A stretch of DNA of 64,000 nt. Origin: Haloarcula japonica DSM 6131. GTDB lineage: Archaea; Halobacteriota; Halobacteria; Halobacteriales; Haloarculaceae. The notes beneath the pieces are model-generated. The model saw only the letters and a list, made by a program, of their open reading frames with translations, searched no databases and was not told where the DNA came from. The translations under genes were made by a program, and so were the position numbers. How positions within the stretch are numbered: the first letter of the stretch is position 1; each line of letters begins with the position of its first letter. This document shows, in pieces, positions 3,866 through 59,942 of the stretch. Location of the stretch: positions 1-64,000 of the forward strand of contig NZ_AOLY01000006.1 of NCBI RefSeq assembly GCF_000336635.1, read 5' to 3'.

Positions 3866-5857
3866 ATGGACGACCAGTATCTAGACGCATTCATCCGTGA
3901 AAGCGAAGAAGCGATTACCGAACTCAACAACTCACTGCTCGAACTCGAATCCGACCCCTCCAACACGGAGGCGATGGATTCGATCTTCCGGACAGCCCAC
4001 ACGCTGAAGGGCAACTTCGGCGCGATGGGCTTTGACAACGCAGCAAACCTCGCGCACGCGATGGAGGATCTGCTCGATGAGATGCGCCAGGGCGAGATGG
4101 AGGTCACACCGGACCTGATGGACCTCGTCTTCGCCGGCGTCGACCAGATAGAGGTCATCGTCGGGGAGATCGAAGAACACGGCGAATCGGAGACGGAGAC
4201 CGACGAGGTGGTCGAAGAGCTCCGCGCCGTCCTCGAAGAAGGAGCCGCCGCCGCGGGCGGCAGCGAAACGGTAGACGACGGCGACTCGTCGGACAGCGAC
4301 GAATCGTTCACCACGGATGCCAGCGTTAGTGATGCCGATATCGACGGTGACACTGTCGACGAGCGGGTCCTGCAGGCCGAAATCAGCGTCGGGGAGTCGG
4401 ATATGCTCGGGGTCGACTCGATGCTGGCCGTCGAGTCCATCGAGGGGCGGTTCGACATTCTCGATTCGAGTCCGAGCCGTGCCGATATCGAGGACGGCGA
4501 GTTCGAGGACACGTTCGTCCTGTATCTCGACGGTCCCGATGCAGCGACCGTCGACGCCGAGCTCGGAACGACAGGAAAGGTCGACAGCTTCGACGTGACC
4601 GACGTGACCGATGAACTGGTAAGCGACACAGACTTAGGCTCCGATGCTGCCGAGGATACTGACACGGGTTCGGACACAGGTTCGGAACCCGACCCAGGTG
4701 CTGAAGAAGAACACAGCGTCGACGAGATCAAGTCCGTCCGCGTCGATGTGGACCAGCTCGACGACCTCCACGGGCTCGTCGAGCAACTGGTCACGAGCCG
4801 AATCAAGCTCCGGCGTGGCGTCGAGAAAGACGACCTCGACTCCACCGGCGAGACGCTGAACGAACTGGACAAGATCACGGCGAACCTCCAGAACACGGTG
4901 ATGGATATGCGGCTCATCCCGCTGAAGAAGGTCGTCGGGAAGTTCCCGCGGCTCGTCCGGGACCTCGCACGCGAACTCGACAAGGACATCGAGTTCGAGA
5001 TCGAGGGCGAAGACATCGAACTCGACCGAACCATCCTCACCGAGATTTCGGACCCGCTGATGCACATCCTGCGGAACTCAGTCGACCACGGTATCGAACC
5101 GCCCGAGGAGCGCGAACAGGCGGGCAAGCCACGTACCGGCCACATCACGCTCCGGGCCTCCCGCGAGCGCGATCACGTCATCATCGAGGTCGAGGACGAC
5201 GGGGCCGGGCTCGACGTGGAGGGGATCAGAGAGAAGGCAATCGAGAAGGGCGTCCGCTCACCCGAGGAACTGGACGCGATGGACGACTCCGCGGTGTATG
5301 ACCTCGTGTTCCATCCCGGCTTCTCGACGGCCGACGAAGTGACCGATACTAGCGGGCGCGGCGTCGGGATGGACGTCGTCCACGACACGGTCTCCCAGCT
5401 CGACGGGTCGGTCAGCGTTGACTCCGAACCGGGTGAAGGAACGACTGTTTCACTGCGCCTGCCGGTGACGATGGCTATCGTCAAGGTGCTGTTCGTCAAG
5501 GTCGGCGGCGAGGAGTACGGCGTCCCCATCAAGAACGTCGACGAGATTACCGGGACGGAGGAGGCAAAGCAGGTCAACGGCCAAGAGGTCATCAAGCACA
5601 ACGACGAAATCTACCCGGTCATCCACCTCGACGACACCTTCGACATCGAGGGTGAGACGGCCAACGGCGATGGGATGCTCGTCCGCATCCGCGAGTCCGA
5701 GCGCCAGGTCGCGCTCCACTGTGACTCGGTCAACAGCCAGGAAGAGGTCGTCGTCAAGCCCCTGGAAGGTATCCTCTCGGGAACACCTGGTCTCTCGGGT
5801 ACGGCCGTATTGGGCGACGGGAACATCGTCCACATCCTCGACGTGGTGACCCTATGA
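3866..5857 (+). CDS. cheA: Chemotaxis histidine kinase CheA
   Basis: A 663-residue kinase with the full domain order. An HPt domain carries H45 in RTAHTLKG. An acidic linker and P2-like region (about 125-290) come next, then the dimerisation domain. The ATPase domain has the N box LRNSVDHGIE and G boxes VEDDGAG and GRGVGMD, and a CheW-like P5 domain follows from about residue 530. It autophosphorylates and passes phosphate to CheY and CheB. It overlaps cheR by 4 nt (ATGA), so the two are translationally coupled. No cheY gene is present in the window. Confidence 0.97.
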   Translation: MDDQYLDAFIRESEEAITELNNSLLELESDPSNTEAMDSIFRTAHTLKGNFGAMGFDNAANLAHAMEDLLDEMRQGEMEVTPDLMDLVFAGVDQIEVIVGEIEEHGESETETDEVVEELRAVLEEGAAAAGGSETVDDGDSSDSDESFTTDASVSDADIDGDTVDERVLQAEISVGESDMLGVDSMLAVESIEGRFDILDSSPSRADIEDGEFEDTFVLYLDGPDAATVDAELGTTGKVDSFDVTDVTDELVSDTDLGSDAAEDTDTGSDTGSEPDPGAEEEHSVDEIKSVRVDVDQLDDLHGLVEQLVTSRIKLRRGVEKDDLDSTGETLNELDKITANLQNTVMDMRLIPLKKVVGKFPRLVRDLARELDKDIEFEIEGEDIELDRTILTEISDPLMHILRNSVDHGIEPPEEREQAGKPRTGHITLRASRERDHVIIEVEDDGAGLDVEGIREKAIEKGVRSPEELDAMDDSAVYDLVFHPGFSTADEVTDTSGRGVGMDVVHDTVSQLDGSVSVDSEPGEGTTVSLRLPVTMAIVKVLFVKVGGEEYGVPIKNVDEITGTEEAKQVNGQEVIKHNDEIYPVIHLDDTFDIEGETANGDGMLVRIRESERQVALHCDSVNSQEEVVVKPLEGILSGTPGLSGTAVLGDGNIVHILDVVTL

Positions 5858-7961: not shown

Positions 7962-8825
7962 ATGAGCGACGGAGAACACCCACTGGTCGATACGAAAGGG
8001 AAGTTCGTCCAGGTCGTCTCGGACGGGCGCAAGCGAAACGACATCGAGTGGCTACCCGGCCGGATTCTCCTCTCGAACAAGCGTCTCGTCCTCGCGACCA
8101 ACGACGGCAAGCGGACCATCCCGCTGTCGAAGGTCAGCAGCGTCACGGCCAGCCAGATGAACCAGCCCCTCGCGCAGGTCGACAACTACATGAAGATACA
8201 GGCGGGCCGGGACGTGACACTCATCTCGGCGAAGCAGGCCGAGGAGTTCCAGGAGAAGCTCTACGGCACGCTGCTCGACCAGACCGTCGTCCTCGTCAAC
8301 CATCCCGCTGTCAAGGGCGGCGTCGTCCAAGACGGCGGCTGGGAGAAGGCACGGCTCAAACTCGACGGGGACTGCATCAATCTGGCCATCACCAGCGGCA
8401 CGTTCGTCGAACTGGACATCGACGACGTGGGGACGGTCGAATCCAAGGAGAAGACCATCCGCGGGGACGAGCGGCCCCTGTTAGAGGTCGAGCACACCAT
8501 CGAGGGGACCAGCGTCGAGACCCACATCTCGGGGGCGCCCCGACACGTCTCGCTGATCGAGGGGCTCGTCCGGCAGGGCGAGCAGCGCAACATCGCCGAC
8601 GACGTGGACCTCTCGGATAAAGAGACGCAGGTGCTGATGGCGCTGTACTCCGGTATCTCGCCGTTCAAGATCCCGGAGTTCGTCGACATGGACATCGAAG
8701 AGGTCGAGGACGTGTACGACCGGCTGATGGCGGCCGACATCCTCGAACCGGTCCGGACCCGCCGCGAGGTCCAACTGGAGGCCCGCGGACGATCTATCGC
8801 GAGTGACGCGATGGCAGACCAGTAA
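7962..8825 (+). CDS. cheF: Taxis adaptor protein CheF, copy 1 (DUF439)
   Basis: A 287-residue protein of the archaea-specific CheF (DUF439) family, which links phosphorylated CheY to the archaellum switch complex. The N-terminal half is beta-rich, with GRILLSNKRLVLAT near residue 25 followed by TIPLSKV. The C-terminal third reads as a winged helix (KETQVLMALYSGIS, then VEDVYDRLMAADIL). It lies 59 nt after the HEAT-repeat gene. A second copy lies at 11183-12061 with the same layout. Confidence 0.92.
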   Translation: MSDGEHPLVDTKGKFVQVVSDGRKRNDIEWLPGRILLSNKRLVLATNDGKRTIPLSKVSSVTASQMNQPLAQVDNYMKIQAGRDVTLISAKQAEEFQEKLYGTLLDQTVVLVNHPAVKGGVVQDGGWEKARLKLDGDCINLAITSGTFVELDIDDVGTVESKEKTIRGDERPLLEVEHTIEGTSVETHISGAPRHVSLIEGLVRQGEQRNIADDVDLSDKETQVLMALYSGISPFKIPEFVDMDIEEVEDVYDRLMAADILEPVRTRREVQLEARGRSIASDAMADQ

Positions 8826-54949: not shown

Positions 54950-55249
54950 TCATCGGTACAGCGATACGTACAGCATCGCGAACCCGATGATGAACGGGAT
55001 CGTCTCCGACATCTGGAAGAAGACGCGAACGAGGGCCCCGGTCTCGCCGGCGCTCAATTGCGTGATGACGCTGGATATAGCGACGCCCATACTGATGAAT
55101 GCAAAGCCGACGAACGCGTACTGGAGTCGTTCTGACGGGCGTTTTCGGTAGGCCTGGAAGCTAATCAAGGTGATACCGAGCGTCAGTCCGAACACCACCA
55201 TCCGCATCAGGATGAGCGCGCTACGTGCGATAGTCACGCCAGTCGTCAT
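54950..55249 (-). CDS. DUF7521-type small membrane protein, second copy
   Basis: A 99-residue protein with three membrane helices (about 10-30, 42-64, 75-97), homologous to the one at 485-760 (shared LTLG, VGFAFISMG and a final MLYVSLY/MYSLVTY). It follows its winged-helix regulator by 28 nt, the same order as in the first module. Confidence 0.83.
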   Translation of the reverse strand: MTTGVTIARSALILMRMVVFGLTLGITLISFQAYRKRPSERLQYAFVGFAFISMGVAISSVITQLSAGETGALVRVFFQMSETIPFIIGFAMLYVSLYR

Positions 55250-55277
55250 GCGGTCACCCGTTCACTGATCGGCACGC

Positions 55278-55628
55278 TCATTCCGGATTCAGCTCGTCCC
55301 AGAGCTGACTGAACCGGTCCGGGAGGTTTTCTTCCCGATAGATGCGTACTTTGTACTCCTCGTCTTCAAGCGAGATGACCGTCGACTCGAAGTTGGACTC
55401 GTACACTTTGTAGTGGTTTCCGTCCTCGGCGACGAGCGTCCGGTCGGTGACGAGGTCGTACTCGTCGAGAAGTTCGATACGGCGATACACCGTCGGCAGC
55501 GAGAGGTCACACTCCTCTGCGAGGTCCTTCGCCGACTGCGGTTCTCGACTGATCGCAGCGAGCACGCGGCGTGCGTGCTTATCGCCGATAGTATCGAGAA
55601 TCTCCTCGATGCTCTGTTCCTCAGCCAC
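55278..55628 (-). CDS. Winged-helix transcriptional regulator, second copy
   Basis: A 116-residue paralogue of the regulator at 844-1179. EILDTIGDKHARRVL, AKDLAEECDLSLPTVYRRIELL and a C-terminal beta/charged region align along the whole length. It starts at GTG 55628 with a TATATAA element 26 nt upstream, so it is probably leaderless. It is divergent from the PadR-like gene and shares its promoter region. Confidence 0.87.
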   Translation of the reverse strand: MAEEQSIEEILDTIGDKHARRVLAAISREPQSAKDLAEECDLSLPTVYRRIELLDEYDLVTDRTLVAEDGNHYKVYESNFESTVISLEDEEYKVRIYREENLPDRFSQLWDELNPE

Positions 55629-56911: not shown

Positions 56912-57484
56912 TTAGCTTTCGGTTTCAGCCGGGTGGGTGTAGTCAACAGTGATGCGGGTGCTTGCGATGAGCGCGTTCGCGATGGTCTCTGACGCTTCTT
57001 CCTGCTCAGTTTCGCCCTCGATAGATAGTTTCTCACCGAGTGCGTACACCTGAAACCGATGTTCATAGGGCTGTCCGGCCGGTGGACACGGCGGCTCATA
57101 CCCCGGCTCGTTGGGGGGCTGTGTTCCCTGTCGAGCGCCGCCGAGCGTATCGAGGGCCGGCTCGCGCGGGAGTCCGGCCGGAATCCGCTCCGTCTCCGGC
57201 GGGACATTCCACAGCGTCCAGAACACTGGCTGGCTGAACACGCCGCCGTCGTACTCAGCTGTGACGGCAAGCGCTGCCGTCGGCTCCGGGACGCGCTCGA
57301 TGACAAACGGCGGCGAAACGCCGTTGCCGTCGCAGGTGAACCGGGACGGGAGCTCGCCTCCGGAACTGAACGCGGGGCTCGACACATCGAAAGTCGATGT
57401 TGTGTCGTCCGACTGCCCGATACAGCCCGCGTTCCCGACCAGGGCTGACACCCCGAGCGTCTGGACGAAGTGGCGACGGCGCAT
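56912..57484 (-). CDS. YbhB/YbcL-type PEBP lipoprotein
   Basis: A 190-residue phosphatidylethanolamine-binding-protein-fold protein. The N-terminus RRRHFVQTLGVSALVGNAGC is a Tat-like signal with lipobox ending at Cys21. The PEBP core has FTCDGNGVSPPFVIERVPE and a C-terminal EHRFQVYALG, where YbhB proteins have a similar ligand-site sequence. It is probably exported and lipid-anchored. Ligand unknown. It is divergent from the nitric oxide reductase gene (175 nt between starts). Confidence 0.9.
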   Translation of the reverse strand: MRRRHFVQTLGVSALVGNAGCIGQSDDTTSTFDVSSPAFSSGGELPSRFTCDGNGVSPPFVIERVPEPTAALAVTAEYDGGVFSQPVFWTLWNVPPETERIPAGLPREPALDTLGGARQGTQPPNEPGYEPPCPPAGQPYEHRFQVYALGEKLSIEGETEQEEASETIANALIASTRITVDYTHPAETES

Positions 57485-57581
57485 ATCAGAGAGGGAGGGG
57501 CAGGTCGTAATCTACCTTGTGATACCCAGCCACGTCTCACGTCGAATCCAGAGACAGGAGACCACCGGTCCCTATCAGGGC

Positions 57582-57643
57582 GAACATGTTCTCCCCCGTC
57601 GCCAACGACTGGGAATGTCTTACCCCCTTCTTATTTTGGGGTA
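57582..57643 (+). promoter_or_regulatory. Nitric oxide reductase promoter with two palindromic sites
   Basis: GAACATGTTC (57582-57591) is a perfect 10-bp palindrome. Downstream, TACCCC (57621-57626) and GGGGTA (57638-57643) are perfect inverted arms, and the TATA-like CTTATTTTG (57630-57638), centred 26 nt before the ATG at 57660, lies between them. The second site would block or recruit the basal machinery; the first sits where an activator could bind. Confidence 0.6.
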
Positions 57644-57659: not shown

Positions 57660-59942
57660 ATGGAACTCAAACGCAAAACGATCGCGAAGGTGATCGCCGC
57701 CGCGTTCGTCTTCAACCTCATCGTCATGGGGGCTGGCGCGTGGATCGCGTATCAGGAAGCGCCACCCATCCCGGAGCAGGTTGTCGGACCCGACGGCGAG
57801 ACGCTCGTCACGGGTGAGGACATCCGTGAGGGCAAGAAGACGTTCCAGAAGAACGGGCTGATGAACCACGGTTCGATCCTCGGGAACGGCGCGTACTATG
57901 GCGCGGACTACACCGCAGACTCGCTGGAGTTGAAAACCCAGCATATGCGGACGTACTACGCCGAGGAGCGCTACGGGACCGAGTACGAATCGCTGTCGAC
58001 GGCCGAACAGGCCGCCGTCGATGACGACGTGAAACAGGACCTCAGTGGGGAGTTCGAGGGCGGGAATATCGAGTACTCCGCCGCAGAGCTATACGCCCAC
58101 CAGCAGGTCCGTCAGGAGTACGTCGAGCGGTACCACGAGGGAAGTCACGAACGGGGCGTCCCCGAGGGGATGATCGACTCCGAAGCCGACGCCCGGCAGT
58201 TCGCCGACTTCGCGATGTGGACGGCGTGGTTCTCCCACACCGACCGCCCGGGCGGCGAACACTCCTACACGAACGACTGGCCCTACGAGCCCGCCGCCGG
58301 CAACGACGCGACCGGTGCGGCGATGACCTGGAGCGTCATCGCGATGGTCCTCCTCGTCGCAGCCGCCGGTGGCGGCATCTGGCTGTACCAGTCTGTCAGT
58401 CTCCCGGAGCCGTCTGCCAGTGATCTCTCGGTGCCCGAACCGGGCGATGTGAGCATCTTCCCCAGCCAGCGGGCCGCCTTGCGGTTCATCCCGGTCGCCG
58501 CCGGGTTGTTCCTCGCACAGGTGTTACTCGGTGGGTTGCTCGCCCACTTCTACATCGAACGGGCCGGCTTCTTCGGCATCGAGGAAATATTCGGCGTCCA
58601 CATTCTCCAGCTACTGCCCTTTGCCATAGCGAAGACCTGGCACATCGACCTGGGCATTCTCTGGATTGCCGCGACGTGGCTCGGCGCAGGACTGTTCCTC
58701 CCGCCGCTGCTGACCGGCCACGAGCCCAAGCGCCAGTCGACGTACATCAACATCCTCCTTGGAGCCATCGTCGTCGTCACCGTCGGCGGCCTCGGCGGTA
58801 TCTGGCTTGGCTCGCATGGTTACTTGGGTGACCTCTGGTGGATCGTCGGCAACGAAGGACTGGAGTACCTCGAAGTCGGGAAGCTCTGGCAGGTCGGGCT
58901 GTTCGTCGGCTTCGGCCTGTGGGCTGTCCTGTCGATTCGGGGCCTGAAGCCGCTGCTGGACCGCGAGCCGGTGTTCGGTCTCGCACACATGATCCTCTAC
59001 GCCGGCGGCTCCATTGCCCTGCTGTTTACCGCCGGGTTCTTCTTCACCCCGGAGACCAACATCGCCGTCACGGAGTTCTGGCGCTGGTGGGTCGTCCACA
59101 TGTGGGTCGAAGGGGCCTTCGAGTTCTTCATCGTCGCCATCATCGGCCTGACGCTGGTGTCGATGAACCTGCTCAGCCGCCGCAGCGCCGAGAAGGCGGT
59201 CATGCTCCAGGCCTTGCTGGTCATGAGTACGGGCGTCATTGGCGTCTCCCATCACTACTGGTGGGTCGGGATGCCCGACATGTGGGTCCCTATCGGGAGC
59301 GTGTTCTCGACGCTGGAACTGCTTCCGCTGGTGTTCATCCTCTATGAGGCGCTGGGCCAGTACCGGGCGATGTCCGAGACCGGCGGCTTCCCCTACAAGC
59401 TCCCGTTCATGTTCATCATCGCCAGCGGTGTCTGGAACTTCGTCGGGGCCGGCGTGCTCGGGTTCTTCATCAACCTCCCGCTGATCAACTACTACGAGCA
59501 CGGCACCTACCTCACGGTCGGCCACGCCCACGCCGCGATGTTCGGGGCTTTCGGCTTCCTCGCGCTTGGGATGGTCACCTACATGCTCCAGCTCGCCATC
59601 GAGCCCGGCCGCTGGGACGGCTCCTGGCTCCGGGCGGCGTTCTGGTGCTGGAACGTCGGCCTGGCGCTGATGGTGTTCGTCTCTGTGCTGCCCGTCGGCT
59701 TCCTCCAGCTGGAGGCGGCGTTCACCGGCAGCTACGCCGCGGCCCGGAGCGTGGCGTTCTACAACCAGCCGCTCGTCCAGACGCTGTTCTGGGCACGGCT
59801 CCCCGGTGACACGCTCATCATCCTCGGGACGGCTATCTACGCGGCCGACCTGATCCGCAAGCGGTTCGTCCTCCGGAGATCTGAGGACGACCCCACGGTC
59901 GAGGACATGGCCGTCGCTGAGGGCGTCATGAGCGACGACTGA
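57660..59942 (+). CDS. norB: Quinol-dependent nitric oxide reductase (qNOR)
   Basis: A 760-residue haem-copper oxidase-superfamily protein. A qNOR-type N-terminal extension (about 1-215, no CxxCH haem c site) precedes the 12-helix core. All expected ligands are present with the known spacing: H328 and H624 for low-spin haem b, H622 for haem b3, and H480, H531, H532 with E484 for the non-haem iron. It reduces 2 NO to N2O with quinol electrons in the cytoplasmic membrane. No other denitrification gene is adjacent, so NO detoxification is equally likely. Confidence 0.95.
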   Translation: MELKRKTIAKVIAAAFVFNLIVMGAGAWIAYQEAPPIPEQVVGPDGETLVTGEDIREGKKTFQKNGLMNHGSILGNGAYYGADYTADSLELKTQHMRTYYAEERYGTEYESLSTAEQAAVDDDVKQDLSGEFEGGNIEYSAAELYAHQQVRQEYVERYHEGSHERGVPEGMIDSEADARQFADFAMWTAWFSHTDRPGGEHSYTNDWPYEPAAGNDATGAAMTWSVIAMVLLVAAAGGGIWLYQSVSLPEPSASDLSVPEPGDVSIFPSQRAALRFIPVAAGLFLAQVLLGGLLAHFYIERAGFFGIEEIFGVHILQLLPFAIAKTWHIDLGILWIAATWLGAGLFLPPLLTGHEPKRQSTYINILLGAIVVVTVGGLGGIWLGSHGYLGDLWWIVGNEGLEYLEVGKLWQVGLFVGFGLWAVLSIRGLKPLLDREPVFGLAHMILYAGGSIALLFTAGFFFTPETNIAVTEFWRWWVVHMWVEGAFEFFIVAIIGLTLVSMNLLSRRSAEKAVMLQALLVMSTGVIGVSHHYWWVGMPDMWVPIGSVFSTLELLPLVFILYEALGQYRAMSETGGFPYKLPFMFIIASGVWNFVGAGVLGFFINLPLINYYEHGTYLTVGHAHAAMFGAFGFLALGMVTYMLQLAIEPGRWDGSWLRAAFWCWNVGLALMVFVSVLPVGFLQLEAAFTGSYAAARSVAFYNQPLVQTLFWARLPGDTLIILGTAIYAADLIRKRFVLRRSEDDPTVEDMAVAEGVMSDD

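Follow-up and report, generated by a model that had tools for sequence, protein, structure and literature searches.

The promoter of norB, the nitric oxide reductase gene of this Haloarcula genome, carries two elements in fixed phase: the published haloarchaeal denitrification palindrome (pal-1; positions 57581-57592 of the window, i.e. of the whole 64-kb stretch of DNA that was analysed) and, downstream of it, a second, weakly symmetric candidate operator of 17 bp with the form TTCY-N9-RGAA (IR2; 57599-57615, plus strand), which was delimited by the positional register of RGAR and by a maximum of inverted symmetry. IR2 lies between pal-1 and the TATA box, its centre being 20.5 bp, or two helical turns, from that of pal-1. 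The pair recurs at this rigid spacing in the promoters of norB and nirK, in Haloarcula and in other genera, as well as in front of the halocyanin-nosZ operon of Haloarcula, whereas the narO-type promoters examined carry the palindrome alone. We regard it as probable that pal-1 and IR2 make up a composite activator region, in which an anaerobic activator of the Bat/NarO type would occupy pal-1 and a second factor IR2.

The gene controlled from this region (57660-59942, plus strand) encodes a quinol-type nitric oxide reductase of 760 aa, with matches to the Pfam families NorB_cytochrome_c-like and COX1 (PF22085, E 5e-54, and PF00115, E 1e-49, respectively), which bears out the first-pass annotation, made from the sequence alone, in its naming of a nitric oxide reductase promoter. 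Thirteen further genomes of the genus have full-length copies, 96-99% identical. The divergent neighbour, a PEBP-like (phosphatidylethanolamine-binding-protein) lipoprotein gene (56912-57484, minus strand; PF01161, E 5e-18), starts at 57484 and the norB ATG stands at 57660, so that the intergenic promoter region comprises 175 bp and is common to both genes. The TATA box, TTATTTT (57631-57637, plus strand), was assigned from its position and sequence; it lies 23-29 nt 5' of the ATG, a placement that would suit a transcript with no leader or a very short one, its predicted start site being close to the initiation codon.

The first-pass annotation had proposed control from two sites, with a repressor bound over the TATA box at the inverted repeat TACCCC-N11-GGGGTA and an activator bound at an upstream palindrome. 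Both elements exist exactly as it gave them, the repeat at 57621-57643, where it encloses TTATTTT, and GAACATGTTC at 57582-57591; the interval between them is 29 bases (39 start to start) instead of the approximately 43 bp that had been stated. For a comparison of norB upstream regions, as the annotation had suggested, 103 norB loci were dereplicated on their last 150 bases to 96 distinct ones, two of which have uncertain norB starts (L114, extrapolated by 87 bp, and L146, which begins at ATC). The outcome was divided: the palindrome is conserved (83/96) and the TATA repeat is not (5/96, every one from Haloarcula, counting perfect copies). Within the window the TATA repeat is unique, 0.06 occurrences being expected with one mismatch for a pattern that was chosen after it had been sighted. 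It is nevertheless no more than chance would provide, because, among 2000 dinucleotide-shuffled versions of the 175-bp intergenic region, 52% hold at least one equally good repeat (arms of 6, loop of 3-20), with a shuffle mean of 0.99 arm-6 repeats versus 1 observed. Among the 14 closest norB promoters, 2 to 6 of the 6 arm pairs are complementary, without compensatory changes, and the left arm (identity of 0.85) is less conserved than either the leader (0.92) or the TATA core (0.94). Across the 96 norB regions the repeat is thus neither conserved nor compensated, which rules it out as a conserved operator; it looks like a lineage-limited chance repeat around a conserved TATA core. Exact though the repeat is, and placed around the TATA box as such an operator might be, the model of a repressor over TATA combined with an activator at the palindrome appears highly improbable. 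The observation made in the first pass is therefore confirmed and its interpretation partly supported: control from two sites is likely, the second site being IR2 and not the TATA repeat.

Pal-1, CGAACATGTTCT, agrees at 11 of 12 positions with the published consensus CGAAYATDKTYG, from which it differs in the final base (G to T), and lies 67 nt from the norB ATG. In H. mediterranei, the nar, nirK, nor and nos promoters are reported to carry CGAAYATDKTYG, which takes the form CGAACATGTTCG at nor and nos (Miralles-Robledillo et al. 2023, PMC10062603). According to that paper, mutation of the palindrome lowers the activity of the nor and nos promoters, with nar behaving differently, and at nos the effect of mutation 12, equivalent to the T/G position here, was not significant. 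The H. mediterranei site and pal-1 are alike in palindrome, two-base spacer and gene, and nearly so in their distance to the nor start codon (66 nt there, 67 nt here), while the last base is G there and T here (PMC10062603). Pal-1 is, in short, the already published denitrification switch and constitutes the known part of our finding. Most norB loci with the motif have it placed alike, within the published range of distances to the start codon (about 66-79 nt). Taken by its own sequence, pal-1 is not significant, since a perfect 10-bp palindrome arises in 15% of the 2000 shuffles of the 175-bp region; its significance rests on conservation. In 83 of the 96 distinct norB upstream regions, representing 29 of 35 genera, the best match to CGAAC-N2-GTTCG scores 8 or more out of 10 (shuffles, about 4/96), and the strict form GAACNNGTTC occurs in 51/96 (shuffle mean, 0.11); at a score of at least 8, pal-1 was not found in the norB upstream regions of 6 of the 35 genera. 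This upholds the first-pass view of the palindrome as a regulatory site. The 2-nt spacer, which that annotation took for a departure from the CGAAC-N4-GTTCG form it gave for NarO of Haloferax, is the normal form, found at H. mediterranei nor and nos as well as at the genome's own nar/narO site (CGAACATGTTCG), and the N4 spacer was seen neither at norB nor at this nar/narO site. Three norB upstream regions (L017, L019 and L086) have, in place of the canonical palindrome, a variant GTAA(T/C)ATGTTCGG nearer the start codon, possibly a diverged operator.

The second element became apparent when promoters were aligned on pal-1 without gaps, with offsets counted from the first base of CGAAC. Register counts were confined to loci with a pal-1 score of at least 8 and enough downstream sequence, leaving as anchored loci 82 or 78 of the 96 norB regions, 44 of 57 nirK regions from other genera, 23 of 25 Haloarcula nirK regions and all 20 nosZ regions; some of the 13 unanchored nirK regions of other genera may be paralogues. 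The nirK set from outside Haloarcula combines 40 hand-chosen places (mainly one per genus label) with 17 automatic ones, nirK matches having been obtained in 116 of 243 genomes, 13 of these 116 being Haloarcula. As the anchor was selected by score, identity values for pal-1 are biased upward; IR2 played no part in the selection. At 31 columns past the first CGAAC base, [AG]GAA starts in 47 of the 82 anchored norB loci (18 genera) and, at the same offset, in 22 of the 44 anchored nirK loci from outside Haloarcula (12 genera); the offsets examined had a median count of 0. With the pattern relaxed to RGAR at column 30 or 31, the register holds for 55/78 anchored norB loci (3.0 at random positions, with a maximum of 9 in 500), 29/44 nirK loci of other genera (random, 1.5; 16 of 24 genera), 17/23 Haloarcula nirK loci (random, 0.8) and 15/20 Haloarcula halocyanin-nosZ loci (random, 0.6). 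At least one norB locus in register was seen in 22 of 28 genera (20.6/28 when weighted by genus), and approximately one quarter of the genera that have pal-1 lack the right arm of IR2 at norB.

Between genus representatives, the mean pairwise identity of the IR2 right arm is 0.59 for norB and 0.47 for nirK, compared with 0.26-0.40 in every other block outside pal-1. Since these representatives are only 26-40% identical elsewhere, the conservation of IR2 does not stem from shared ancestry of the whole promoter. A test for inverted symmetry, in which the RGAA pattern was not used, peaked at column 26 in both norB (0.49) and nirK (0.40), other centres giving 0.19-0.36 in the two sets. In nirK, IR2 often approaches a perfect repeat of the TTCTCAG-N3-CTGAGAA type; in the norB promoter of the window the right arm GGAA (57612-57615) is intact and the left arm degenerate, with 4 of 8 pairs complementary.

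The spacing rule is borne out by two variant architectures. Halorubrum norB has the two sites in swapped order in 12 of the 15 promoters whose pal-1 is proximal, the centres being 21 bp (7 loci) or 20 bp (5 loci) apart, and in most Haloarcula nirK promoters, as read from the sequences, a third repeat of similar type follows after about 20 bp, with the TATA box displaced accordingly. The same promoters make it quite unlikely that RGAA is part of the core promoter, as an extended BRE or a TFB-specific element, and not an operator. Such a role would suit the location of RGAA about 15-20 bp before TATA in norB and its roughly constant distance from TATA in norB and nosZ promoters; yet most Haloarcula nirK promoters keep the distance between IR2 and pal-1 with TATA about 20 bp farther away and a repeat in between, Halorubrum norB carries RGAA on the opposite side of pal-1, and narO-type promoters are without it.

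The last point comes from a control set of 16 narO-type upstream regions, 10 of which, from four genus labels (6 of the 10 being Haloarcula), had a pal-1 score of at least 9: in none of these 10 was RGAR present in register on either side of the palindrome. On the nar side in Haloarcula, a TATA-like sequence directly adjoins the palindrome. Four nosZ promoters on named plasmids outside Haloarcula gave mixed support for IR2; those of Haloferax larsenii and Natronococcus have GGAA in register or one base off, that of Natrononativus has a partial element only, and in that of Natronorubrum no pal-1 was seen. A search of the window's own genome with the composite pattern returned 16 matches in all versus 1 for the reversed control, with the halocyanin-nosZ operon as the one exact match and norB recovered with two mismatches; no denitrification genes were recognised, from rule-of-thumb ORF lists, at three of the other 14 matches (L308, L310 and L317). 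The genome's own nirK is split over two contigs (end of G000:C2 and start of C3; L304 and L306), and its promoter combines two good downstream repeats with a degenerate palindrome, CGAACATGTTAT. As far as the available text of PMC10062603 goes, the H. mediterranei motif is described as a palindrome only, and no companion site at a constant distance is mentioned. No description of such an element beside the palindrome was found in the literature searched by title and abstract start, a search that did not extend to Hattori 2016, and a phased second operator seems undescribed in the literature examined.

Several features speak for IR2 as a site in its own right. The half-sites of the two elements are oppositely directed (GAAC-N2-GTTC versus TTCY-N9-RGAA), the best IR2 examples, of the TTCTCAG-N3-CTGAGAA type, are clearly unlike pal-1, and all 10 narO-type promoters do without IR2. 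These features argue against a single NarO/Bat-like regulator that would bind as two dimers, to a strong pal-1 and to IR2 as a weak, divergent copy, with cooperativity at two turns. We consider this somewhat unlikely, even if it would accommodate the GAA/TTC half-sites found in both pal-1 and IR2, the swappable order in Halorubrum, the repetition of IR2-type sites about 20 bp apart in nirK, and a regulator promoter with two pal-1-like boxes 35 bp apart, that of BatC38.

Pal-1 is probably bound by an HTH_10 regulator, and the genome holds 33 HTH_10 matches, among which two genes stand out. One is a NarO-type gene (L158, about 8062-8739; DmsR_N, E 1e-37; HTH_10, E 3e-20) transcribed divergently from the nar operon; the two together span 2247-8739 of L158 (G000:C31:26000-44000), with CGAACATGTTCG between them in the TATA-proximal slot. 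A NarO gene is thus present in the genome. The other, the HTH_10 regulator BatC38 (L303, G000:C38:40000-48000; 4103-4738), has the two boxes just mentioned, CGAACATGTTCG and CGAATATATTCG (4047-4058 and 4082-4093), in its promoter, and its neighbours encode a radical SAM protein and a DmsR_N/HTH_10 protein. When ORFs flanking norB were clustered, antisense ORFs added noise, and the analysis kept to the HTH_10 and HTH_20 groups. Seven named loci from seven genera have a full-length relative of BatC38 (50-68% identity) no more than 2.5 kb from norB; Haloferax massiliensis and a Halorubrum supplied two further matches near norB, both partial. In the sensor part no conserved cysteine was found when six of the seven norB-linked relatives were aligned. 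BatC38 is a candidate denitrification regulator, and it may correspond to H. mediterranei E6P09_00735, which is reported to sit in the nirK-nor cluster (PMC11218638). H. mediterranei is stated to be without NarO (PMC10062603), so that pal-1 may be bound by different factors in different species. Closer to norB, about 2 kb before it, the window contains a winged-helix HTH_20 gene followed by a gene for a DUF7521 protein (54950-55628, minus strand; HTH_20 at 55278-55628), and 14 of 80 named loci (8 genera) have a relative of the former upstream of norB, at a distance of at most 2.5 kb. Winged-helix HTH_20 genes are common in haloarchaea, and this one was for that reason set aside as a norB regulator. 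On the Natrononativus plasmid, a NarO-like DmsR_N/HTH_10 gene (L325, 1954-2604; 33% identical) is divergent from nosZ.

Haloarchaeal activators usually sit next to BRE/TATA. At norB, IR2 would fill this slot, just before BRE/TATA, and a second dimeric factor bound there, on the same helix face as the occupant of pal-1, could help to recruit TBP/TFB. Pal-1 itself would be bound by a regulator that responds to anaerobiosis and most likely belongs, with its HTH_10 domain, to the Bat/NarO/DmsR kind. The pair would then be a control unit common to nirK, norB and the halocyanin-nosZ operon, whereas at the nar/narO promoter pal-1 alone would take the TATA-proximal slot; low oxygen would be signalled through pal-1, and IR2 would bring in the NO or nitrite condition required by nir, nor and nos but not by nar. 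For the gene-specific responses we draw, as for the effect of mutating pal-1 (PMC10062603), on published work in H. mediterranei, where nirK, nor and nos are reported to answer to unknown NO/nitrite sensors and nar to oxygen (PMC7188791). Because IR2 marks nirK, norB and nosZ and not narO/nar, and the same three are those reported under NO/nitrite sensors, a factor linked to NO or nitrite is the most economical occupant of IR2. We put forward more tentatively the possibility that IR2 is the operator of a haloarchaeal NO/nitrite-responsive regulator and that pal-1 and IR2 act as an AND-type module at nirK, norB and nosZ, in which the number and order of operators vary by lineage and the two-turn phase is kept. 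Should IR2 be a real second site, it would supply a 17-bp sequence as DNA bait, together with a spacing rule and a set of mutations, with which to seek an archaeal NO regulator.

Set against known systems, the arrangement has both familiar and distinct features. The NarO protein of Haloferax volcanii was reportedly described by Hattori et al. in 2016; here, a NarO-type gene with DmsR_N and HTH_10 domains stands beside the nar operon with CGAACATGTTCG between, the N4 spacer given in the first-pass annotation is not seen, and NarO is a putative occupant of the norB site. Bat/GvpE upstream activator sequences lie just upstream of BRE/TATA, with HTH_10 regulators in the case of Bat, and the norB sites resemble them in placement and differ from them in sequence. 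In bacteria, paired control of the FNR/NNR type places nar under oxygen and adds NO control on nir, nor and nos. This bacterial scheme is named as a parallel in PMC7188791, and the control logic proposed here for haloarchaeal nar, nir, nor and nos is like it, with elements and regulators that are here archaeal.
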